IMG/VR virus record: IMGVR_UViG_3300017917_003112
Location: 1-47,762 of that record
DNA from: a virus
Reading direction: 5' to 3' (one strand)
DNA: 47,762 bases
Below, piece by piece: positions 12,877 to 47,762 of this stretch. The notes below the pieces were generated by a model. That model searched no databases. It was not told the origin of the DNA and worked only from the letters and a program-made list of their open reading frames with translations. Position 1 is the stretch's first letter. Each line of letters starts with the position of its first letter. A program made the position numbers and the translations under genes.

Positions 12877-15800
12877 ATGGCAGGATTAGATAATAAAATA
12901 TCCAATATTATTGGAGTTAAATTACCTAGTTGGGTAATGGGACAATTAGGAACTAGATCAAATAAAACAAATCAAGATAATAGAGATAATGATAATTTAA
13001 TATATTTAGGTAATAAAACAGCTTGGATAAGATTAGTATCATCAATTAATGTAATAAATGAAAAAGATCTAAAATACTTTAATGATAATATAGATATACC
13101 TATTATTAAACCTGAAGATTTAGCAAAAGAATTTGTATTATTTGCTGGTACATCAAAGTATTTAGATAAAAATTCATATCAACTTAGATCAGGATTAGGA
13201 CCTAATAGTGCATATGGAATTTTAGGAGAAAAAGAAATTAATAATTATGGCTATAAACCAATGCCAGGTATAACTTCTGTATCTATAGATACGCAAGGTA
13301 AATTAGGATCTGTAATATCAGCAACTATTAATTTTAAATGCTGGGATAAAATGCAATTAGATGTAATAGATGCTCTATATTTTAAATTAGGATTTACTAT
13401 GTTTTTAGAGTGGGGTCATACATTCTACTATCTTAGTGATACTAAAACTCCAAATAAATTAGAAAGTTCTGAATTACTTAGTATTGACCCATTTCAATCT
13501 GGACTATCAAAGGAAGATATATACTTTAAAATAGCTCAAAATCGTAGAGAATCTGAAGGTAATTATGATGCTATGCTTGGTATAGTTACAAATTTTAATT
13601 TTAAATATACTCAAGACGGCGGATATGATTGTACGTTAAAATTAATGAGTTTAGGAATATTAGCAGACTCAATAAAAATAAATAACCCAGGATCACTTCC
13701 TGGAATTGTGAAAGCAGAAGTTGTACAATTAAATAATACTTTAATTGAGATTGCAAAAAAACAACAACAAGATGAATTAAATAAGCAAAAAGCTTTAGAT
13801 GCAGCTAATTTAGAACAAAAAGCTAAAGACGAAATTCCAAAATCTATAGAAGACATAATATCTTTATATGGAACAACCGCTTATTCAGAAGGAGCTAAAC
13901 TAAATATAAATGCAAATGCAGCAGATGCAGGAAATAGTAATAAAGATGAAGGGAGTCTTAGAAAAGCTATATTATATTATCCATCAAATAAAATAAAAGA
14001 TCCTAAATACGCCGATATTTCAACAGCTGTACCAGCATATGGAGATATTTATATTGTTAGAAAATTAAATGGATATATCCCATTAAGACCAGATTTATTA
14101 ACTAAAACATCTGTTATTTTTAATTATCCTGAATTTGCAAATATATTATCAAGAATATACACAGAAGATCCTACAAAAGATTTATATAATGATAATTTTT
14201 GGGAATATAAAGTATTTTCTTCATATGATTATACAGCAGAACTTACATATAAAAGTAGTTATAATAATGAAAGTTATAAAATAGAAGTATTAATAGATAA
14301 ACAAGGAGAGACAAACCCTGAAATAGTTGGATTAGATGATCAAACATATAAACCAACAAAAAAAGAATTTACAGAGGCTTTTATATCTACTATTAAAGAA
14401 GAAAATACTAAATTTTTAATAAAAGAATATACTAGACTTGGAGAGTTTGTATTTGAATTTAAAGTGCCAATTATAACTAAAAAACCAGTAACTAAACCTG
14501 GAGGTGTTTCTAGTACTCTTCAAAAATTACCAGATATAATTGTACAAGAAGATATAATATTTTATGTACCTACTAGATTGACTATAAATGATACTAGACT
14601 TATAAAAAGTTTTAATACAGAAGGAGTTATACAACCAGTAAATTTTTTAAGTTTAGAGAAAAAAATTGAATCTCAAAATCAAATTGAAATAGCTAAAAAA
14701 GAAAAAGAAGAACAGCAACAGGCTCAAAAAGAACAAACTATACAAATTGAAAATGCACTAAATATACAATCATCTTTAGAGTTAACTTTAAGAGCAATAC
14801 AATTACATGCATTAAATAAAGCAATTAATCAAACATCAAGTCCTGATGTAAATATAGGTAATAAAGTTTATAAGTGTGAATTTTGGAAAAAAACTGATCT
14901 AGCAAAAAATTCTCAAAAACCTTTTTTAGAGCAAGTTTTTTCTAGTGGAGTATATGCTTCTTTTATTAGAGATTTAGTTGAGGATAAAATTAGCGATTTA
15001 AGTTATTATACATCAGGTATTCCTAGTTTTTTTAGACTTGAATTTAAAAATCCTACTCCATTAGATAAATTTAAAGTAAGAGCAAAGTATGGATTTGCAA
15101 CTACTTTAATGTCAAATAATAGTAGTGTTGCTGATATACAATTAAAAAAAGTTGATTATAAAGCATTACTCAATGCATATGTATTACCTTATAATATTAA
15201 TCAAGAAATAATAAAAGGTATTCAAACAAATCATCCTGTATATATCCCTTTTGGTTTATTATTAATGATATTAAATCACTCGTGCACTATATATGATACA
15301 CCAGATGATGCAGCAACACAAACACCATTAGTTTATATAGATTATAATCCTGAACTAAATTTTTGTTTAAGTAATAGTAAACAATTGAGTACTAATCCAT
15401 GGAAAACACTAATTCCATTTGAAGGTACTTTTGAAGATTATAAAAAATTATTTAATCATGATTTATTAAGTAAAGACGGTACTAGTATTACAGGAAATTC
15501 TGAAACTACTAAATTATTTGATCCAGAAACAGAAGATAAAATATCTGGAGCCATACCTACACTAAAATTTATAACATCTAAAGAAGGGGCTCATAGTGAT
15601 GGTAATAATTATAGAGCTAAAATAATGAATATATTAATTAATATAGATTATGCTATTGAATTAGTAAAAGATTTTAGTACTAAAGATGGTGGTAATGGAG
15701 TTTTTTTAAAACCATATATTGAACAAGTATTATCAGATTTAAATAAGTATTTAGGTAATATTAATGCATTTAGATTATCGTATAATGATCAAGGAAATAC

Positions 15801-17115
15801 TTTTCAAATAGTAGACGATCAATTCATACCAGCACTATCTGGAGAAACTCAAATATCTGCAAATAATATATCAGTGTCACCAACAAATACTACTGAAATA
15901 CCTTTAGTAGGTAAAAAGTCAATTGCAAAATCACTAGAAATTTCAACTGATATAAGTAGTAAATTATCTAATATGCTAGCTATTTCTGCAAACTCAACAG
16001 TTGCAAACAAAGCTACATTATCTACAAATGGAGATCCTTTTGGTTTTATTAATACTAATTATGTAGATAGATATATAAAAAATAGACAAGAAATATCAGG
16101 TTTTAATAATATAGATAAAAAAAATGATAGTTTAGTATCAGCAGCAACCCAGTTTAATCAAGCTATATCGGATTTTTACAGCGTGTCTAATCCATCAGAA
16201 AATTTAGTTTCACCATCTACTAATTATTATATAGAAAAGATGAGTAAAATAAAAAATGATGAATATCCAACTAGAGCTTCTACAATGATACCGGTATCTA
16301 TTAATTTTACTACAGATGGAATATCAGGATTAGGAATGGGCCAAGGATTTACTGTGTCAAATGAATTACTTCCATATACATATAATTTAAAAAGAGTATC
16401 AGAAAGTACTCCAGATTATATAAATAATGTAGGATTTGTTATGGTAGGACTTTCACATACTATAGAAAGTAATACCTGGAATACTTCTGTAAAAGCAAAT
16501 ATGATATTATTAAAAAATAAAACTGATTTTGATGGAAGTGTTACAAATATTAGTAATAGAATTGGAACTGTTGGAATTAATCTTAGAAATGAAAATCAAA
16601 TAAATATCCCAGGAAAGATTTTAGGTCAAGTTGATTTATCTAGTTTACAATTAACTGGTGGTTGGGAAGAAATAGCTTATAATTATATATCATCTAAAGA
16701 GGGATTCTATGAAATACCAAAGTGGGATGCAAATCATTTAAGAGGAGGTTATGGATCAGATAATATAATATTAGCTAATGGACAAAATAAAAAAGTGGAT
16801 AATAATACTAGATTTACTAAAGAAGATGCAAAACGTACTTTAATTTGGAATATTAAAAATGATTATTATAAAAGAGTTGTAAATAAAATAGGAGTGCAAC
16901 AGTGGGAAAAATTAAAAAATACTCAAAAAGCAGCTTTAATAAGTTATGCTTATAATGTTGGTAGCATTTTAAATAGTGTAGCTAATGCTATACAATCTGG
17001 AGAATCTACTGCAGTAGCTAATGCTATAGCAGCAGGTCCAATAACATCAGAAAAAAAAGTGGTAGATGGATTAATAACAAGAAGAAAAGAAGAGGCTACA
17101 TTATATTTATCATAA
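12877..17115 (+). CDS. Giant baseplate hub protein with C-terminal lysozyme domain
   Basis: The protein has 1412 residues. The N-terminal part (residues about 1-280) is a folded region with beta-rich segments (MPGITSVSIDTQGKLGSVIS, TMFLEWGHTFYYLSD, GIVTNFNFKYTQDGGYDCTL), resembling gp27/gpD-type hub domains. Lys/Gln-rich coiled coils follow near 290-330 and 620-655. Residues about 1260-1412 match GH24-type phage lysozymes: SSKEGF, then KWDANHLRGGYGSD, then TKEDAKRTL and QKAALISYAYNVGS. Glu1275 and Asp1284 have the nine-residue spacing of T4 lysozyme Glu11/Asp20; the third catalytic residue is uncertain. T4 gp5 likewise fuses a lysozyme to the spike. It probably digests peptidoglycan during injection. 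The gene starts at an AGTTATG context. Confidence 0.82.
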   Translation: MAGLDNKISNIIGVKLPSWVMGQLGTRSNKTNQDNRDNDNLIYLGNKTAWIRLVSSINVINEKDLKYFNDNIDIPIIKPEDLAKEFVLFAGTSKYLDKNSYQLRSGLGPNSAYGILGEKEINNYGYKPMPGITSVSIDTQGKLGSVISATINFKCWDKMQLDVIDALYFKLGFTMFLEWGHTFYYLSDTKTPNKLESSELLSIDPFQSGLSKEDIYFKIAQNRRESEGNYDAMLGIVTNFNFKYTQDGGYDCTLKLMSLGILADSIKINNPGSLPGIVKAEVVQLNNTLIEIAKKQQQDELNKQKALDAANLEQKAKDEIPKSIEDIISLYGTTAYSEGAKLNINANAADAGNSNKDEGSLRKAILYYPSNKIKDPKYADISTAVPAYGDIYIVRKLNGYIPLRPDLLTKTSVIFNYPEFANILSRIYTEDPTKDLYNDNFWEYKVFSSYDYTAELTYKSSYNNESYKIEVLIDKQGETNPEIVGLDDQTYKPTKKEFTEAFISTIKEENTKFLIKEYTRLGEFVFEFKVPIITKKPVTKPGGVSSTLQKLPDIIVQEDIIFYVPTRLTINDTRLIKSFNTEGVIQPVNFLSLEKKIESQNQIEIAKKEKEEQQQAQKEQTIQIENALNIQSSLELTLRAIQLHALNKAINQTSSPDVNIGNKVYKCEFWKKTDLAKNSQKPFLEQVFSSGVYASFIRDLVEDKISDLSYYTSGIPSFFRLEFKNPTPLDKFKVRAKYGFATTLMSNNSSVADIQLKKVDYKALLNAYVLPYNINQEIIKGIQTNHPVYIPFGLLLMILNHSCTIYDTPDDAATQTPLVYIDYNPELNFCLSNSKQLSTNPWKTLIPFEGTFEDYKKLFNHDLLSKDGTSITGNSETTKLFDPETEDKISGAIPTLKFITSKEGAHSDGNNYRAKIMNILINIDYAIELVKDFSTKDGGNGVFLKPYIEQVLSDLNKYLGNINAFRLSYNDQGNTFQIVDDQFIPALSGETQISANNISVSPTNTTEIPLVGKKSIAKSLEISTDISSKLSNMLAISANSTVANKATLSTNGDPFGFINTNYVDRYIKNRQEISGFNNIDKKNDSLVSAATQFNQAISDFYSVSNPSENLVSPSTNYYIEKMSKIKNDEYPTRASTMIPVSINFTTDGISGLGMGQGFTVSNELLPYTYNLKRVSESTPDYINNVGFVMVGLSHTIESNTWNTSVKANMILLKNKTDFDGSVTNISNRIGTVGINLRNENQINIPGKILGQVDLSSLQLTGGWEEIAYNYISSKEGFYEIPKWDANHLRGGYGSDNIILANGQNKKVDNNTRFTKEDAKRTLIWNIKNDYYKRVVNKIGVQQWEKLKNTQKAALISYAYNVGSILNSVANAIQSGESTAVANAIAAGPITSEKKVVDGLITRRKEEATLYLS

Positions 17116-35120: not shown

Positions 35121-35894
35121 ATGAATTTATTAACAGAAAATAAAAAAATAGTTTTATCTAATAAAGCAATTATTTTAGAAAATCTAAAATTAGCTAAGCA
35201 ATATGCAGATAAAGGAGAATTATCAAAAGAAGATCTAAAGTTATTAATAAATTCAGATCCTACTCCTCAAAAAAAGTTTGTTGGTTGGATGGCAAAAATG
35301 CTTATTAAAAATAATGCAGATATAGATAAATTAAGAAGTGCTGTTGAGGAATTTAATACTCTTTTAAATAAAGGAAAAACAGATACAAAAGATATTAATG
35401 ATTTTAAAACATTAAAAGATTTAGAATCTGAATTAGATAAAATTAATCAATCTGGTGGAGCAGTATCATCATCTGACTTAGAAAATGATTATGAAGTTAT
35501 TTTAGATAATAAAGATTTATATATAGCAGTTCCTCATACACATGAAGCATCTCGTAAATTAGGAATGTCTAAATTTGCATATAGGGATTGTGAAGATTCA
35601 GAAGGTAAATCAACTGGCCAAAAAGATTCAGCTTGGTGTACTACATATAAAGCACCAGATCATTTTAATGATTATTATTATAAAGATAATGTAACACTAT
35701 ACTATATTAGGATAAAATCAGAGGCTATGATGGATAAAATAAAACAAAGTAAAGTTTTTAAAGAACCAAAAGAAAAGTATGCAGTAGTTGCTTTTGCTGT
35801 TTTAGAAGATGGTAGAATAGATGCGTATGATGGATTAGATAAAAGATTAAGTCCTCAAATGATAAAAGAATATAGAAATATAATTGGATTATAA
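35121..35894 (+). CDS. Hypothetical phage protein with SAWCTTYK motif
   Basis: The protein has 257 residues. Residues 1-115 are helical and Lys/Glu/Leu-rich. Residues about 125-257 form a folded domain containing YRDCEDSEG, DSAWCTTYKAPDHFNDYYYK and LYYIRIKSE, then KYAVVAFAVLEDGRIDAYDG. Large phages often encode proteins with an AWCT(T/A)-type motif followed by a YY..LY.I and a KYA..A....G.I.A.D pattern, whose function I do not know. No catalytic assignment is justified. It has its own promoter-like motif, and the next gene starts two bases after its stop. Confidence 0.6.
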   Translation: MNLLTENKKIVLSNKAIILENLKLAKQYADKGELSKEDLKLLINSDPTPQKKFVGWMAKMLIKNNADIDKLRSAVEEFNTLLNKGKTDTKDINDFKTLKDLESELDKINQSGGAVSSSDLENDYEVILDNKDLYIAVPHTHEASRKLGMSKFAYRDCEDSEGKSTGQKDSAWCTTYKAPDHFNDYYYKDNVTLYYIRIKSEAMMDKIKQSKVFKEPKEKYAVVAFAVLEDGRIDAYDGLDKRLSPQMIKEYRNIIGL

Positions 35895-35895
35895 A

Positions 35896-36369
35896 ATGAT
35901 AAAATTAATAGACTTATTAAAAGAAGAAGACTTTTTTACTCCTAGACGTTCTAAAGAAGAAAGGTCTAAGACTTATAATATTATTATCCAAAAACAAATA
36001 CAACAGTACATAAAAAATGGTAGTAAAGGATCTTTAGATTTATATAATATACCAATTATAAGTTTACCAGATGGATTAATAGTAGGAGGTGAATTAGACT
36101 TAAGAAAAACTAAAATTACAACTTTACCAAATAATTTAAAAGTAAAAAGAGATGTTGATTTAAGTGGTATACCAATTGAGTCTTTATCTAATGGCCTAGA
36201 AGTAGGAGGTGATCTTGATTTAAGTTATACTAAAATAAAAACTTTACCCAATGATCTAAAAGTAGGAGGAAATCTTGATTTAACCGGCACCCCAATAGCT
36301 AAAAAATATACAAAACAACAGTTGATAAGAAAAATGATACCTGGAGTAAAAGGTGAAATTTATATATAA
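35896..36369 (+). CDS. Leucine-rich-repeat-like protein
   Basis: This 157-residue protein uses ATG at 35896 (MIKLIDLLKEEDFF). An upstream TTG at 35884 would lie inside the preceding gene. Residues about 45-135 are repeats of about 20-25 residues following LP-x-x-L-x-V-GG-x-LDLS-x-T-x-I (SLPDGLIVGGELDLRKTKI, TLPNNLKVKRDVDLSGIPI, SLSNGLEVGGDLDLSYTKI, TLPNDLKVGGNLDLTGTPI). This is a phage-type leucine-rich repeat resembling the LPX repeats of bacterial effectors. A basic helical tail follows. The ligand is unknown. It probably binds a host or phage protein. Confidence 0.72.
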   Translation: MIKLIDLLKEEDFFTPRRSKEERSKTYNIIIQKQIQQYIKNGSKGSLDLYNIPIISLPDGLIVGGELDLRKTKITTLPNNLKVKRDVDLSGIPIESLSNGLEVGGDLDLSYTKIKTLPNDLKVGGNLDLTGTPIAKKYTKQQLIRKMIPGVKGEIYI

Positions 36370-39213: not shown

Positions 39214-40149
39214 ATGAAAGCAGCCGTTATCGGTATGGTAAATAATGTTGGTAATTCCACCTCCCATCATGGAGGTGGATATTATCACGTTATGTTAAAC
39301 ATACTAAAAAATTGTCAACCATTTGAATTAGATATTAATCCTAATCCATCTTCATGGAATAACTATGAAAGAATATACATATTAGAAGGAGTTAATTATC
39401 AAGAAAATACCTTTAATTTTATTGGAGGCCCACAACCAGAGCATAGGCAAAAATTAGAAGCTATTGCAAATTATAAAGGTTTAATAATTAATGTTAATGT
39501 ACCATTAGATCTAAATATTTTTAATAATAGATTTAAACTACAACATAAATTTAGTTTTAATAATACTATAGACTATGCTAGAATGTATGGTATAGATACT
39601 AGAAAGCTAGTAAGAGGAGACTCTCATTCATTAAGTGTTTGGAAACCGGGCTTTGGTTTAGATAGAACTGATGGTAAAACATTATATGGATTTTTAAAAG
39701 ATTCAGATTCTATAGTTCAAGATTGGAATAAAAAATACGATGAAACTATAACTTATTTTGGTAATATTGATGTAAGATTTCACCTAGCAAGACAGCAAGA
39801 TTCATCTATTTCTACAGTAGATCTTTTTAATCGATATGCAGAGTTTAGTCATAAGCTAAATAATAATACAATTATTGGTCTATTACCAATTGAACACGAA
39901 AGTCGTAAACTCCCAAAAACAGGATTATATAAAGGAAGCAAGTTTTGTGGTACTCGTGAAGTAAGAATGGAAATCAGAGAATTAGCACATCAAACATTAA
40001 AAAAAGCTGGAGTAAAACTTTTAGAATGGCCTGATGAATGGATCGATGAAGATGGAACTAAAATGTTTGAGTACATGGAAGCCAGACAGTCAGTCCACTT
40101 AAAACCTAAATATTATAAGTTTTCAAACCAGTTTATAAATACAAAATAA
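39214..40149 (+). CDS. SGNH-like hydrolase/transferase-type protein
   Basis: This 311-residue protein has two motifs of SGNH-type enzymes: RGDSHSLSVW (Gly135-Asp136-Ser137-His138, block I nucleophile Ser137) and TYFGNIDVRFHLARQ (residues about 180-194), similar to the FG-E-ID-x-R-x-H block of bacterial SGNH families. The N-terminus (MKAAVIGMVNNVGNSTSHHG) is Gly-rich. It ends six bases before the next gene, so it forms an operon with the aGPT-like and PLP-like genes. The substrate is unknown. An acyl- or ester-handling step in nucleotide or DNA modification is suggested by context. It starts AGTTATG and contains a GC-rich hairpin at 39257-39278. Confidence 0.55.
   Translation: MKAAVIGMVNNVGNSTSHHGGGYYHVMLNILKNCQPFELDINPNPSSWNNYERIYILEGVNYQENTFNFIGGPQPEHRQKLEAIANYKGLIINVNVPLDLNIFNNRFKLQHKFSFNNTIDYARMYGIDTRKLVRGDSHSLSVWKPGFGLDRTDGKTLYGFLKDSDSIVQDWNKKYDETITYFGNIDVRFHLARQQDSSISTVDLFNRYAEFSHKLNNNTIIGLLPIEHESRKLPKTGLYKGSKFCGTREVRMEIRELAHQTLKKAGVKLLEWPDEWIDEDGTKMFEYMEARQSVHLKPKYYKFSNQFINTK
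39257..39278 (+). other. GC-rich hairpin inside the 5' end of the SGNH-like gene
   Basis: CCACCTCC (39257-39264) pairs perfectly with GGAGGTGG (39271-39278) around CATCAT; a flanking T-A extends it to nine base pairs. It stands out against the very AT-rich background and contains GGAGG. It may reflect only the Ser-His-His-Gly-Gly-Gly codons. Confidence 0.45.
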
Positions 40150-40154
40150 ATATA

Positions 40155-41198
40155 ATGCAAAAATTTATTATAAATCAAGACCTTTTAGAAGCTCTTGATC
40201 AATATGATAAGAAAAGTCTACTAATGCAACAGCATGGTAGTTTAGGTATACCATATCATGGAAATTTATATGAAGATGTAAATGATGATCTTATATACCA
40301 CGTACCTATATATGATACCGCTCATAGAAAGTATGCTGCATTCTGTGCATTTACAGAAGCTGTTTGGCATAAAGAAAATGATGTTAGAAATATGGGTAAA
40401 CACTTTAATCATCATGATATTAAAGATGAGTTTGATTGGTTTATGCTATTTTATTTATTTAGATTATGTGGATCTGGTATTAATTATGTACCTAGATATA
40501 AAACAGATGGCATTAAAGATATACTGGGCACTCATGGTTTCGGTAATTTTTGGGTGGTTGATTCTATATTAAATGGAAGATATACATGGCCAGAATGGAA
40601 AGAAGACCTAAAGAAGCGCATCCGTCCATTTACAGATAATAAAGGATATTTACTACCACAATTCTCATTTGAAGGCCAAACAGGAAATCACTTACGTAGA
40701 TTTATATTAGACCATTCAGAAGATTTAGTTAGATCTATATATGATAGAGTTGTAGGAGGTAGGCAAGATATATATCAAGTAACAGATTATGGAAATAATC
40801 ATTTAAATAATATTGGATTTAAAAAACAAAATTTTGTACTTACTGCATTTGCTGCAGATTTAGGTGAATATTTTCCAAATTATGTAAATCCAAGAGGATG
40901 GGTATATGCAGGAACAAACGCAGTTAAATGTATAAAAGCTATATTTCCAAAAGTTAGTCCAAAAATAAAAGAATTTGAGTACATTAATGAAGTACTACAA
41001 TTTTTATCAAAAAGATATAACTTAAACCCGATAGATTGTGAAGATAGTAGAGCATGCGATGTAGTTAGATATTTCCAAGAATACCAATCACCAGACCATA
41101 TTATTAAAAATAATGGAAAAATTATGAGTAATAATACAATTCTTAAACAAACGTGGGGCCATGATAAGTACTATGACTTTGCAAAAAAATTAAAATAA
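40155..41198 (+). CDS. Candidate aGPT-pyrophosphorylase-like DNA base modification protein
   Basis: This 347-residue protein is mostly helical. Segments such as FRLCGSGINY (102-111), GTHGFGNFWVVD (125-136), VTDYGNNHLNNIGFKKQNF and GWVYAGTNAVKCIKAIFP resemble, from memory, the alpha-glutamyl/putrescinyl thymine pyrophosphorylase and 5-hmdU kinase helical families of phages with hypermodified DNA. In phages ViI and M6 members of this group act as amino acid:DNA transferases. The gene lies between an SGNH-like and a PLP fold II-like gene with gaps of five and one bases, a compact operon. The family match is by eye and uncertain. An unrelated DNA glycosylase-like helical protein is the main alternative. 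Confidence 0.42.
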   Translation: MQKFIINQDLLEALDQYDKKSLLMQQHGSLGIPYHGNLYEDVNDDLIYHVPIYDTAHRKYAAFCAFTEAVWHKENDVRNMGKHFNHHDIKDEFDWFMLFYLFRLCGSGINYVPRYKTDGIKDILGTHGFGNFWVVDSILNGRYTWPEWKEDLKKRIRPFTDNKGYLLPQFSFEGQTGNHLRRFILDHSEDLVRSIYDRVVGGRQDIYQVTDYGNNHLNNIGFKKQNFVLTAFAADLGEYFPNYVNPRGWVYAGTNAVKCIKAIFPKVSPKIKEFEYINEVLQFLSKRYNLNPIDCEDSRACDVVRYFQEYQSPDHIIKNNGKIMSNNTILKQTWGHDKYYDFAKKLK

Positions 41199-41199
41199 T

Positions 41200-42087
41200 A
41201 TGTTTATAAATAAAGCAACAGATCAATCAAATTTAGATATGGCAGATGGTAGAGATTTAAACTACTATCTAGAAATGACAAAAGATTATAAACCTGATTT
41301 TGAATTTAAAATAAAACAAGTTGATGGATTTAATCTTATAGATGATGGTGAGTTTCAATATGGTACTAAAGCTAAAATGGGAGATTTCATGATCAGCCAA
41401 GTAAAAGAAGATACTCTAGTTTATGTAGCACCAAGAACAGGTTATGCTCCTTATTCACTTACATATCTTGCAAAAAAGTATAATAAAAAATTAGTACTAT
41501 TTATGCCAGCATCTAAAGAAGCATCTGAACACCAACTTCGAGTTATTGAAGAAGGTGCCACTCCTATATTTCTTAAAACTCCTGCAATGCCAACTATAAA
41601 TGCTTGGGCAAAAGACTTTGCTCAAAAGACTGGAGCAAAATATTTACCTTTTGGTCTTAAGCATGAACAAGTTGTAGCAGGTGGTGTTAGAATATTTTAT
41701 GATGCATTTAAAGATTTAGATATTCCAACTATGTGGACTGTATTTTCAACAGGAGTATTATCTAGAACGCTTCAGATAGCACTTACTAATACTGAATTTA
41801 ATGCTGTAGCCGTTGCAAGAAATGTACAACCAGGAGAATTAGGAAGAGCTAAATTTTATACCTATCATAAACAATTTCTTAAAGAATGCGATATAGACAC
41901 TCCATTTGATTGTATTAAAACATATGATGCAAAAGGTTGGGATTATATGAAAAGATATGGTAAATTAGGAGATTGGTTCTGGAATGTTGCTAAAAATATG
42001 CCAAAGCCAACAATTAAACCTAGTGATATTGATTCTCAAAGAGAGTGGGGAGATAAATCTGATATAAATAAATACTTAGGACTATAA
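41200..42087 (+). CDS. PLP-dependent fold type II-like enzyme
   Basis: This 295-residue protein resembles tryptophan synthase beta/ACC deaminase-type PLP enzymes. GTKAKMGDFMI (residues 55-65) contains candidate PLP lysines Lys57 and Lys59. VAPRTGYAPYSLTYLAKKY is the position of the substrate-binding SNH-type loop, followed by NKKLVLFMPA, HQLRVIEEGATPIFLKT and AKYLPFGLKHEQVVAGGVRI. VFSTGVLSRTL is at the usual Gly-rich phosphate-loop position but is divergent. Such enzymes could modify an amino acid donor or a DNA adduct. The gene starts one base after the preceding stop, so the two are tightly coupled. Activity is unproven because the phosphate loop is atypical. Confidence 0.6.
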   Translation: MFINKATDQSNLDMADGRDLNYYLEMTKDYKPDFEFKIKQVDGFNLIDDGEFQYGTKAKMGDFMISQVKEDTLVYVAPRTGYAPYSLTYLAKKYNKKLVLFMPASKEASEHQLRVIEEGATPIFLKTPAMPTINAWAKDFAQKTGAKYLPFGLKHEQVVAGGVRIFYDAFKDLDIPTMWTVFSTGVLSRTLQIALTNTEFNAVAVARNVQPGELGRAKFYTYHKQFLKECDIDTPFDCIKTYDAKGWDYMKRYGKLGDWFWNVAKNMPKPTIKPSDIDSQREWGDKSDINKYLGL

Positions 42088-42147: not shown

Positions 42148-42453
42148 ATGAATATTTTAGAAAAAGCAAATGAAATAATTTATAAACGATCTGAAGAAAA
42201 GGAAAGACAGTATGGTCCTATTCAAGATGGTATGATTGAGGCTGCTAAAATAGCATCTTTATTATCAAGAAAAGAAATAACTCCTACAGACATGTATAAT
42301 TGTATGATAGCTCTTAAATTATCAAGACAAGCATATAATCATAAAGAAGATAATTTATTAGATTGTATTTCTTATATGGCAGCATTAAATGATTATCAAA
42401 ATAATATAAACAATGAAAGTACAAAAGTTACGACCAGTAAAAACTCCAAGTAG
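42148..42453 (+). CDS. DUF6378-like small phage protein
   Basis: The protein has 101 residues. The conserved pattern RQYGPIQDGMIEAAKIASLL followed by ITPTDMYNCMIALKLSRQAY and HKEDNLLDCISYMAAL matches, from memory, the DUF6378 family found widely in phages near nucleotide metabolism genes. It is helical and the function is unknown. An all-alpha NTP-pyrophosphohydrolase-like role has been suggested by similar architecture but is not established here. It begins a nucleotide metabolism cluster and overlaps the dUTPase gene by 41 bases in another frame, showing translational coupling. Confidence 0.72.
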   Translation: MNILEKANEIIYKRSEEKERQYGPIQDGMIEAAKIASLLSRKEITPTDMYNCMIALKLSRQAYNHKEDNLLDCISYMAALNDYQNNINNESTKVTTSKNSK

Positions 42454-42841
42454 AGGAACACCTCAAAGTGCAGGTATCGATTTTTATGTCCCAGATGATT
42501 TTCAGCCAGTTACTCTATTTAACGGTGAATCAGTATTAATCCCATCAGGAATTAAAGCACATATTCCAGAAAATTATATGTGGTTAGCACTTAATAAATC
42601 TGGTGTAGCTACAAAATTAGGATTAACTGTTGGAGCTCAAGTAATAGATGAAGATTATGAAGGTGAGATTCATTTACATGTAATAAAAAATACAAATAAA
42701 CCAGTTACTATTGAACCAGGCATGAAATTAGTTCAGTTAGTATTAGTTCCAGTATTATATGAAGATATTGAAGTAGTAGATATATTAGAACCTAGAAATA
42801 CTCAAAGAGGTACTGGTGGATTTGGATCAACAGGATCATAA
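42413..42841 (+). CDS. dut: dUTP diphosphatase (trimeric dUTPase)
   Basis: This 142-residue enzyme hydrolyses dUTP to dUMP, lowering uracil incorporation and supplying the TS substrate. All five family motifs are visible: SAGIDFYVP (19-27), NKSG (61-64), VGAQVIDEDYEGEI (73-86), EPGMKLVQLVL (101-111) and RGTGGFGSTG (132-141). The start at 42413 lies within the preceding gene, and the N-terminal MKVQKLRPVKTPSRGTPQSA is the expected length. It is followed by the VWA gene after 20 bases. Confidence 0.94.
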   Translation: MKVQKLRPVKTPSRGTPQSAGIDFYVPDDFQPVTLFNGESVLIPSGIKAHIPENYMWLALNKSGVATKLGLTVGAQVIDEDYEGEIHLHVIKNTNKPVTIEPGMKLVQLVLVPVLYEDIEVVDILEPRNTQRGTGGFGSTGS

Positions 42842-42861: not shown

Positions 42862-43476
42862 ATGAAAAGTAATTACACACACATTATTATCCTTATTGAT
42901 CGTTCGGGTTCTATGAATGGAATTCAAAAGGATATGGAAGGAGGATTAACAGAATTTATTAAAAAACAAACTGATCTACCTGGTACTTGTACAATAACAG
43001 CAGCTCAATTTGATTCATACTATGAAAAATTACATAGTTTAAAAAATGCATCAGAAGTAGGAGAGATTAAAATTAATCCAAGAGGAAATACTGCATTGAT
43101 AGACTCTATGTGCAAATTAATTATAGATGCAGGTAAAGAACTAAGTAGTTTAAAAGAAGAAGATAGACCAGAAAAAGTATTGTTTTTAACTATTACTGAT
43201 GGAGAAGAAAATTCATCTCGTGAATATACGAATGAACAGTTAAAAGAAATGATTAAATTACAAGAAGAAGTTTATAAATGGGAATTTGCATACATTGGAG
43301 CAAATCAAGATTCTTTTTCTGTTGCTAGTAATTTAGGTATTTCAAATTCATTCTCTAAATCATTTAATTATACTGCGACATCTGCTGGAATAGGTGCTAT
43401 GTTAACTAACTTAACCACTTCAACAGCTACATATAGATCGTCAATAAGTGGATCTTTTGCATTTACAAATACATAA
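42862..43476 (+). CDS. VWA-domain protein
   Basis: This 204-residue protein is a single von Willebrand factor A domain. The metal-ion-dependent adhesion site is complete: DRSGSM (Asp13, Ser15, Ser17), the Thr of RGNTALIDSM, and the Asp of TITDGEENSS. No signal peptide or membrane segment is seen, so it acts in the cytoplasm. It lies between dUTPase and dCMP deaminase genes. VWA proteins usually assemble complexes with AAA+ ATPases or bind partner proteins. No AAA+ partner is evident nearby. The C-terminal 25 residues are Ser/Thr-rich. Partner and role are unknown. Confidence 0.85.
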   Translation: MKSNYTHIIILIDRSGSMNGIQKDMEGGLTEFIKKQTDLPGTCTITAAQFDSYYEKLHSLKNASEVGEIKINPRGNTALIDSMCKLIIDAGKELSSLKEEDRPEKVLFLTITDGEENSSREYTNEQLKEMIKLQEEVYKWEFAYIGANQDSFSVASNLGISNSFSKSFNYTATSAGIGAMLTNLTTSTATYRSSISGSFAFTNT

Positions 43477-43480
43477 GCAA

Positions 43481-43978
43481 ATGAATAAACAAGCTAGATT
43501 AGATAAAGTTTTTATAAATATAGCAAAAGAAGTATCACAACTATCACACTGCGTTCGATCAAAAGTCGGCGCAGTTTTAGTTAAAGATGGTAATTTGATA
43601 AGTTTTGGATATAATGGTACTCCGGCTGGAATGGATAATTGTTGCGAAGATAAAATATATATAGCTTCAGATGTTGGCGGCTGGATAGATATTGATACTA
43701 TAGATGAAACATATCCACATACAGATGATATTGGAAGATATAAACTAGGAACTAAACAACATACTATTCATGCAGAAGTAAATGCTATTTTAAAAGCTGC
43801 AAAATCAGGAAATTCTGTAGATGGATCTACTTTATATTTAACATTATCCCCGTGTATAGAATGCTCTAAACTAATACTACAATCAGGAGTAAAAAAAGTT
43901 GTATATTTAGAAAACTATAGAGATACAAAAGGTATAGAATTTTTAAAACAATTTATAGAAATAGAAAAATATGAATAG
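43481..43978 (+). CDS. Deoxycytidylate deaminase
   Basis: This 165-residue enzyme converts dCMP to dUMP, feeding thymidylate synthesis. The zinc-binding motifs are HTIHAEVNAIL (His97, Glu99) and SPCIECS (Cys125, Cys128). The KVGAVLVKDGNLISFGYNGTP segment is typical of the family. I chose ATG 43481, five bases after the VWA stop. A GTG at 43448 would extend it into the preceding gene without conserved sequence. The end overlaps the TS-like gene by eight bases. An insert of about 25 residues between the substrate loop and HAE is usual in phage dCMP deaminases. Confidence 0.93.
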   Translation: MNKQARLDKVFINIAKEVSQLSHCVRSKVGAVLVKDGNLISFGYNGTPAGMDNCCEDKIYIASDVGGWIDIDTIDETYPHTDDIGRYKLGTKQHTIHAEVNAILKAAKSGNSVDGSTLYLTLSPCIECSKLILQSGVKKVVYLENYRDTKGIEFLKQFIEIEKYE

Positions 43979-44615
43979 AATATATAAAACTCCTACAGAA
44001 TCATTTGAAGAATTATTTAAGTATTTAAGATATTACGGCCATGATTTTGCAAATACAAAAGCAGACTTTAATATATCATTTACAGTATTAGATCCTTTGG
44101 ATAAAGTAATAAAAACACCAAAACGAAAGTTTAATGTAGACTATGCTGAATATGAATGGGAATGGTATATGAAAGGAGACAGAGATGCTACAGAAATATC
44201 TGAACGTGCCAAGATATGGAAAAATATGATGGTACCAAATACTACTGAAGTAAATAGTAATTATGGATATTTTTGGAATTATAATAATCAATTAGATAGA
44301 GTTATAACTGACCTTAAAGAAAATAAAGAAACTAGACGCGCAATAATAGTACATTATTCTCTTGATGAATTAGATCGATATAAGTATGATACTCCATGTA
44401 ATGATGTACTTAATTTTTATGTTCATGAAGATAAATTACATTTAACAGTATTTGCTAGATCTATTGACTTAGTTTTCGGGTATTGTAACGACCAGTATAC
44501 ATTTGCAAAGTTAATGGAATATGTTTCAGAAAAAACAGGATATAGTGTAGGTAAAATAAATTGGATGATAACAAATTTACATATCTATCCAAGACATTAT
44601 GATTTATTAAATTAA
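43971..44615 (+). CDS. Thymidylate synthase homologue, possibly a dCMP hydroxymethylase
   Basis: The protein has 214 residues, shorter than ThyA (about 264). It keeps the catalytic Cys143 (DTPCNDVLNFYV), TRRAIIVHYS, FARSIDLVFG and the NLHIYPRH motif. In TS the residue four after the Gly of RSxDxxLGLPFN is Asn, which reads uracil; here it is Asp174 (GYCND). Asp at this position marks T4-type dCMP hydroxymethylases. So it may make 5-hydroxymethyl-dCMP or another C5-modified pyrimidine. A canonical TS is also encoded at 46818. It overlaps the dCMP deaminase gene by eight bases. Specificity is inferred from one residue. Confidence 0.7.
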   Translation: MNRIYKTPTESFEELFKYLRYYGHDFANTKADFNISFTVLDPLDKVIKTPKRKFNVDYAEYEWEWYMKGDRDATEISERAKIWKNMMVPNTTEVNSNYGYFWNYNNQLDRVITDLKENKETRRAIIVHYSLDELDRYKYDTPCNDVLNFYVHEDKLHLTVFARSIDLVFGYCNDQYTFAKLMEYVSEKTGYSVGKINWMITNLHIYPRHYDLLN

Positions 44616-46825: not shown

Positions 46826-47762
46826 CATAGATCGACAATACAAAGAACTATTAGAACACATCTTAAATTTTGGTGTGGATAAAAAAGATAGGACCGGAAC
46901 TGGAACTAAATCAATATTTGGTTGGCAAATACGTCATCGAATGAGTGAGGGATTTCCGTTATTAACCACCAAAAAAATGCACTTTAAATCAATCGTAACT
47001 GAATTGTTATGGTTTTTACGTGGAGATACTAATATCAAATACCTTGTTGATAATGGTTGCAACATCTGGAATGGGGACGCATACAAAAGATATTACTATC
47101 ATAAAGATACTTTTGGACCATTAACAATGGAACAATTTATTGATAAAATCAAAACCGATGATGAGTTTGCTAAAACGTGGGGTGAGCTCGGTCCGATTTA
47201 TGGTAAGCAATGGAGAAGTTGGAAATTCACGGATAAATTCACAAATGGTGAACAAATTGCTTATGTAAATGGAAACGTAGACCAAATCGCAAACCTAATT
47301 AACAATCTTAAAACAAATCCAGATTCAAGACGATTAATGGTTAATGCTTGGAATGTAGGTAAATTAGACCAAATGGTTTTACCGCCTTGTCATTATGGAT
47401 TTCAAGTTTATACAAGAGAGTTGAGTAGGAGTGAGAGAATAGATTATTGGTTTAAGAATAATAAACCAAATAGAGATGTTTGTGATTCAGTTGATGAATC
47501 ATCTAAAGAAGAACAGCACAAATATTTTGATAGTGCAAATGTTCCTAAAAGAGCAATCTCATTAATGTATAACTGCAGAAGCCAAGACGCCCCATTAGGA
47601 ACTCCATTCAATATTGCATCTTATGCGCTATTATTATTGATAATTGCTAAACAAGTCAATATGATTCCTGATGAATTAATAACAAACATGGGTGATTGTC
47701 ATATTTATCTAAATCAGATTGATGGAGTTAAAGAACAATTAAATAGAGTTCCTTATGAATTA
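46818..47762 (+). CDS. thyA: Thymidylate synthase ThyA (C-terminus cut by window end)
   Basis: The visible 315 residues convert dUMP to dTMP in the family. Motifs: RTGTGTKSIFGWQIRH near the start, FPLLTTKK, ELLWFLRGDTNI, GPIYGKQWR, DSRRLMVNAWN, catalytic Cys in LPPCHYGFQVY, and RSQDAPLGTPFNIASYALLL with the dUMP-binding Asn, then GDCHIYLNQ. Between the Cys motif and RSxD is an insert of about 45 residues (around RELSRSERIDYWFKNN) that I recall from Bacteroidota ThyA. Codon use is visibly richer in G and C than neighbours. The frame continues past base 47762. It may have been acquired recently from a host. Confidence 0.95.
   Translation, partial: MNSIDRQYKELLEHILNFGVDKKDRTGTGTKSIFGWQIRHRMSEGFPLLTTKKMHFKSIVTELLWFLRGDTNIKYLVDNGCNIWNGDAYKRYYYHKDTFGPLTMEQFIDKIKTDDEFAKTWGELGPIYGKQWRSWKFTDKFTNGEQIAYVNGNVDQIANLINNLKTNPDSRRLMVNAWNVGKLDQMVLPPCHYGFQVYTRELSRSERIDYWFKNNKPNRDVCDSVDESSKEEQHKYFDSANVPKRAISLMYNCRSQDAPLGTPFNIASYALLLLIIAKQVNMIPDELITNMGDCHIYLNQIDGVKEQLNRVPYEL

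Follow-up and report, generated by a model that had tools for sequence, protein, structure and literature searches.

To our knowledge, the decoration of DNA with amino-acid-derived groups is known so far solely for phage thymine. In the thymidine pathway of phages M6 (gp51-gp55 and gp58), ViI, PaMx11 and phiW-14, a hydroxymethylase of the thymidylate synthase (TS) family is encoded in a cluster with a protein of the amino acid:DNA transferase fold and a pyridoxal phosphate (PLP)-dependent enzyme of the family phrog_7093; in M6 and PaMx11 the latter two reportedly act on 5-hydroxymethyldeoxyuridine (5-hmdU), a result attributed to Lee et al. 2018. Two further systems, T4 gene 42/gene 56 and the 5-hydroxymethylcytosine (5hmC) carbamoyltransferase systems recovered by MetaGPA (PMC8670742), offer the closest comparisons for cytosine. 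Here we analyse a 47.8 kb stretch of DNA (hereafter the window; 47,762 nucleotides), which is an entire IMG/VR virus record (IMGVR_UViG_3300017917_003112) and a fragment of a larger genome, and which encodes a cassette of three genes, P1, P2 and P3, at positions 39214-42087, followed by a TS homologue. We conclude that this cassette is very probably a DNA hypermodification module, that it is most probably directed at cytosine, and that the decorating group is probably derived from an amino acid; as a whole, we consider it likely that the cassette makes 5hmC and decorates it in phage DNA by means of P1, P2 and P3.

The cassette resembles the M6-type pathway in all three clustered components, but its TS homologue has the Asp typical of enzymes acting on deoxycytidine monophosphate (dCMP) where M6 gp58 has Asn, a kinase was not found, an enzyme of the SGNH fold is added, no radical S-adenosylmethionine gene was seen in it, and P2 is very divergent. 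With T4 it shares a predicted dCMP hydroxymethylase that has the equivalent of Asp179, together with nucleotide-pool enzymes, but it lacks a glucosyltransferase gene, and P1, P2 and P3 would carry out the decoration instead. With the MetaGPA systems it shares a TS homologue with Asp at position 177 and the neighbouring dCMP deaminase and pyrophosphohydrolase, whereas its predicted decorators are SGNH, transferase-like and PLP proteins rather than a carbamoyltransferase (PMC8670742).

A preliminary description of the window had proposed that three tightly packed genes, encoding an SGNH-like enzyme, a helical protein resembling aGPT-pyrophosphorylases and amino acid:DNA transferases, and a PLP fold II-like enzyme, together with a TS homologue of altered specificity 2 kb downstream, may hypermodify DNA bases; it drew on phages with hypermodified thymine and saw in the SGNH partner a possible new route. 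The packing was confirmed, with open reading frames at 39214-40149, 40155-41198 and 41200-42087 on the plus strand and gaps of 5 nucleotides between P1 and P2 and 1 nucleotide between P2 and P3, and the TS homologue lies 1.9 kb downstream of P3 (43971-44615) within a longer run of nucleotide-metabolism genes. All cassette genes are under purifying selection (pN/pS, the ratio of nonsynonymous to synonymous polymorphism, of 0.06-0.67 in the pairs tested) and are therefore real. Scans of IMG/VR returned 47 loci for P2, 76 for P3 and 18 for P1, and with a P2 profile as query, relatives of P2 turned up in at least 165 stretches, of which 80 were kept. The preliminary description had also proposed searching for the same triplet in other phages, and across 63 distinct P2-bearing loci the order P1-P2-P3 is kept: P1 adjoins P2 in 59 and P3 does so in 61. 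Where a neighbour is missing, the contig stops, other genes are inserted (one locus) or P1 is encoded some 70 kb off on the same contig (one case). In 45 of the 63, the next 7 kb after the cassette hold a TS homologue; 17 contigs end sooner and one has no TS homologue. The module of P1, P2, P3 and TS homologue persists down to 32-52% protein identity. In the most distant groups, where identity to the window proteins falls to 32-41% for P1, 49-66% for P2 and 37-51% for P3, the three genes and the TS homologue stay together (closely packed in L178, L180 and L181); dUTPase or deaminase is sometimes missing, the flanking genes differ, and the GroEL neighbour was not found.

The identity of the modified base is indicated by the TS homologue (plus strand; PF00303, E 4e-26), a predicted dCMP hydroxymethylase. 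Its Asp174 (codon at 44490) occupies the position of Asn177 in E. coli TS and falls in the same alignment column as Asp179 of T4 gp42, the residue that determines dCMP specificity (PMC6400193), so that the altered specificity suspected earlier is supported by this substitution. Both M6 gp58 and the ordinary ThyA encoded by the window have Asn in that column; the latter, recognised from its translation and alignment (PFN motif), starts at about 46818 on the plus strand, is cut by the window end at 47762 and has 81% DNA identity to the thymidylate synthase of Flavobacterium immuto phages. Asp is present at position 177 in all readable loci (45/45 with P2 and 20/20 without it, 65/65 together), and the catalytic cysteine (Cys143 in the window) is kept in 45/45 P2-bearing loci. 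In the MetaGPA data the same Asp is a mark of environmental contigs whose cytosine is modified, and the domains that co-occur in modified contigs there include TS, dCMP deaminase and a family of pyrophosphohydrolases (PMC8670742); the window neighbourhood matches this set. Because the TS homologue has the Asp of T4 gp42 in 65/65 loci, the substrate of the cassette is most likely 5hmC rather than 5-hydroxymethyluracil, judging from these residues. The closest cultured TS homologues, at 44% identity, are found in Bacteroides phages, in which P1 and P3 were not found.

P3 (295 amino acids, 41200-42087) is a PLP-dependent fold-II (PALP) enzyme, as had been suspected: it matches phrog_7093 with E 8e-28, M6 gp52 belongs to that family with a score of 530 bits, and a profile comparison between P3 and M6 gp52 gave 93%. 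The residues of a C-terminal signature, PF..YD.KxW...FWN, are kept in 20/20 sequences and are aligned in M6 gp52, and Lys57 (codon at 41368), likewise kept in 20/20, is from its position likely the PLP lysine. Members of the family are associated with DNA modification in M6, Erythrobacter phage R6L and Microcystis phage Mae-JY30, the proteins of the last two being closer to P3 than M6 gp52 is. In R6L the PALP domain lies between two methylase segments of a ParB-DNA methylase polyprotein (gp1; L001, 10810-13232) and is 28% identical to P3 (tblastn E 9e-26, the unbiased value, since an hhalign comparison is biased by R6L being one row of the P3 alignment), and in Mae-JY30 the P3 relative adjoins ParB and a methylase-like gene.

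P2 (347 amino acids, 40155-41198) is a helical protein for which AlphaFold (predicted local distance difference test score 88.5, predicted template modelling (TM) score 0.88) gives a model that resembles the fold of the amino acid:DNA transferase, aGPT-Pplase and HMUDK_hel (5-hmdU kinase helical domain) superfamily. Second among its BFVD matches comes a protein with an amino acid:DNA transferase domain (E 3.5e-12, TM 0.75), and at ranks 5-8 every annotation reads amino acid:DNA transferase, aGPT-Pplase or 5-hmdU kinase helical domain. Fold comparison had been put forward earlier as a test that could overturn the aGPT resemblance of this protein; in BFVD the best named matches fall in the amino acid:DNA transferase, aGPT and HMUDK families, while Foldseek against the PDB gave nothing significant and sequence scores stay below cut-offs. 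The family assignment follows from the fold and from two natural fusions, with no contribution from sequence: P1 and P2 form a single 713-residue protein in one relative (L180), and in Aeromonas phage 44RR a P1 homologue is fused to an HMUDK_hel-like domain.

P1 (311 amino acids, 39214-40149) combines an additional N-terminal domain (residues 1-119) with an SGNH fold, in agreement with its first naming as SGNH-like: residues 120-308 of its AlphaFold model (confidence score 91.6) match SGNH/GDSL enzymes in the PDB with VIA-align Z up to 11.4. Ser137 of the GDS motif (codon at 39622) and His295 (codon at 40096) are kept in 30/30 sequences and Asn184 (codon at 39763) in 29/30. The Asp of the SGNH block V motif DxxH is absent, position 292 being Gln or Ser, and the invariant Glu289 may substitute for it. 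Searches of PDB sequences with P1 and P2 profiles (hmmsearch) gave no meaningful match, and P1, P2 and P3 have no NCBIfam name.

Within the annotated phage collection, relatives of P1 occur in 38 Aeromonas and 2 Stenotrophomonas T4-like records and in 3 Tenacibaculum records. Nine fragments of 5-7 kb aside, the P1-bearing records of the Aeromonas T4-like branch are exactly those with gene 42 (40/40), which reflects co-inheritance among related genomes and not 40 independent events. Petrov et al. (PMC2993671) reported that phages 44RR, 31 and 25 possess both gene 42 and gene 56 but lack glucosyltransferases, and stated in 2010 that the fate of Hm-dCMP in gene-42 phages of this kind, RB69 and JS98 being named, was unknown. 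In 44RR and 31, P1 forms the N-terminal half of a 795-residue protein whose C-terminal half matches HMUDK_hel (E 7e-4, 19.5 bits against a cut-off of 25) and phrog_2396, the family of M6 gp55. The P1 proteins are thus candidates for the missing DNA-modifying enzyme of these phages. In phage 25, a UDP-galactopyranose mutase and a 358-residue protein (phrog_14998) adjoin P1 (L219, 2776-4957), and decoration of hydroxymethylcytosine with galactofuranose is possible there.

A pathway consistent with these observations would begin with the conversion of dCMP to 5-hydroxymethyl-dCMP by the TS homologue, for which the residue evidence is strong. The dUTPase, the deaminase and the DUF6378 protein, or MazG in relatives, would adjust the deoxynucleoside triphosphate (dNTP) pools so that 5hmC enters DNA, by analogy with T4 gp42 and gp56. 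P1 might then act on the hydroxymethyl group in DNA, most likely by acylating or otherwise activating it; P2, to go by its fold, would attach an amino acid or amine to the activated group, and P3 would trim or rearrange the amino acid, given its homology to M6 gp52. The purpose would presumably be to shield phage DNA from host nucleases. We suggest that P1 supplies the activation, because it is the partner that stays constant and because it precedes the P2-like domains in the fusions; this assignment is the weakest link of the pathway. It is conceivable, though we hold it only tentatively, that P1 represents a new class of DNA-base-modifying enzyme, in which an SGNH protein activates or acylates 5hmC in place of a kinase and either amino acids (through P2 and P3) or sugars (as in the phage 25 type) are attached; the cytosines hypermodified with amino-acid-derived groups would be the first of their kind. 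If the proposed pathway is correct, amino-acid-type hypermodification of DNA extends beyond thymine with its enzymes named, and there is a candidate answer to the question, open in 2010, of how hydroxymethylcytosine is protected in gene-42 Aeromonas T4-like phages without glucosyltransferases (PMC2993671). These Aeromonas phages are cultured, and new cytosine-modifying enzymes would be of use for sequencing chemistry.

The thymine frame of the preliminary description did not hold, as an Asp-type TS homologue points to hydroxymethylcytosine instead. That the TS homologue makes 5-hmdUMP and that P2 and P3 act on 5-hmdU, as in M6 and ViI, is favoured by the relatives of known function in M6 and PaMx11, but we consider it improbable given Asp in every readable locus against Asn in M6 gp58 and ThyA, the absence of P1 from M6 and the results for the 5-hmdU DNA kinase (phrog_800). 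No convincing match to this kinase was found in 14 records besides M6; the search took in the complete 44RR and PTm1 and contigs of 136-183 kb, with the limits that a divergent kinase is possible and the window is a fragment. Weak phrog_800 matches in 44RR and the large contigs were judged by eye from sequence to be gp46/SbcC-like and PhoH-like proteins, and one in L238, encoded close to the TS homologue, looks like a relative of thymidylate kinases; none was accepted as a 5-hmdU kinase. M6 gp54 (L186, 21686-22249) and phiW-14 gp37 (L187, 31347-32132), P-loop proteins known as 5-hmdU DNA kinases, are labelled 'terminase small subunit' by PHROG 800 and in their records, which is misleading. A connection to small-molecule or cell-surface chemistry (auxiliary metabolism), unrelated to DNA, also seems unlikely: ester and amino-acid metabolism makes frequent use of SGNH and PALP folds, and P1 stands beside a UDP-galactopyranose mutase in phage 25 and a sodium symporter in 44RR, but the tight linkage to a hydroxymethylase homologue, the fusions to amino acid:DNA transferase-like domains and the association of P3 relatives with DNA methylases and with the modification of DNA in M6 all speak for DNA, and UDP-galactofuranose could also be a donor for DNA glycosylation.

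Several observations nevertheless weigh against a decoration of 5hmC by P1, P2 and P3 acting together. The top VIA-align match of P2 in the PDB, the 5-phosphomethyl-dU glycinyltransferase gp46 of PaMx11 (8z2n), has a Z of 9.3 over 207 residues that falls within the chance range for helical proteins, and since a queuine-salvage DUF2419 protein (Z 8.7, about tied) and AGOG glycosylases are in the same list, this match alone has no power to identify P2. Foldseek of P2 against the PDB gave no match below E 5, and the window protein matched no family in the family library above curated cut-offs, its best relative (L164) reaching HMUDK_hel only weakly (E 0.03, 14.1 bits, cut-off 25). When the P2 alignment was compared by hhalign with M6 gp51, M6 gp55 and its 20-member family, and the C-terminal domain from 44RR, no score reached significance, although motifs do line up, short of proof; tblastn of the phage collection with P2 found no match. 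PALP was not found in 44RR, phage 25 or PTm1, and the stand-alone P1 beside the UDP-galactopyranose mutase in phage 25 means that P1 need not serve amino-acid chemistry. Lastly, P2 was not detected in the fragmentary contigs of a sister clade (L087-L109) that has retained P1 and P3 along with a TS homologue of the Asp type. Of the hypermodification proposed earlier, all three family calls hold, the altered TS specificity is supported and the thymine frame fails; P2, on which that proposal leaned, is the gene missing here. P1 and P3 are adjacent in this clade, some overlapping, and in 23 of 24 loci P1 is adjacent or the locus ends at a contig edge. Such an arrangement would suit a core pair of P1 and P3 acting on 5hmC with P2 as an optional extra step, P1 being an O-acyltransferase or esterase and P3 the enzyme by which an amino-acid fragment, for example aminoacrylate, is added or eliminated; the nearest solved relatives of P3, CysM/O-phosphoserine sulfhydrylases (E 4e-4), fit this as well. 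This alternative, which differs from the pathway proposed above in how the steps are ordered and otherwise shares ground with it, has perhaps one chance in three in our estimation, since the P1-P2 fusions argue for P1 and P2 acting in sequence and P2 could sit elsewhere in the fragmented genomes.

Following P3 on the plus strand of the window are a DUF6378 protein (42148-42453; PF19905, E 2.7e-13), which, judging from its place in the run, may act as a dCTP/dNTP pyrophosphohydrolase, a dUTPase-family enzyme (42413-42841; PF00692, E 1.1e-23), a VWA-like protein, a dCMP deaminase family enzyme (43448-43978; PF00383, E 9e-26) and the TS homologue. The VWA-like protein (204 amino acids, 42862-43476; phrog_7371), between dUTPase and deaminase, was named by eye from its MIDAS motif (DRSGS). 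DUF6378 also adjoins P1-P2-P3 in distant relatives (L240, L244 and L245) and occurs in the clade without P2, and a MazG-type pyrophosphohydrolase joins the module in some relatives. Another contig with P1-P2-P3 (L238, 10071-12047) has Nudix-like, thymidylate-kinase-like P-loop and Asp-type TS homologue genes in a row, which resembles the T4 gp1/gp42 set. Genes for HNH- and GIY-YIG-type endonucleases and a lipoprotein-like protein (by eye) lie between the cassette genes of some relatives. In L007 and L008 an HNH-like gene lies between P1 and P2, and relative to window positions 39214-41198 P2, P3 and the TS homologue are 99% identical (GroEL too in L008) with P1 at merely 81%; this is an allele swap that may stem from homing-endonuclease gene conversion.

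The window derives from a virus of bacteria. A scan with P2 across 84,980 bacterial and archaeal genomes returned zero relatives and therefore gives no host evidence. The window encodes structural proteins (tail sheath and a T4-type baseplate protein) and replication proteins (ribonucleotide reductase, a DnaB-like helicase and DNA polymerase), and GroES/GroEL-like chaperonin genes, named by eye, lie directly upstream of the cassette. Elsewhere it contains an open reading frame of 1412 amino acids (12877-17115) and a short leucine-rich-repeat-like protein (35884-36369) with the repeat LPNxLKVGGDLDLSxTxI.

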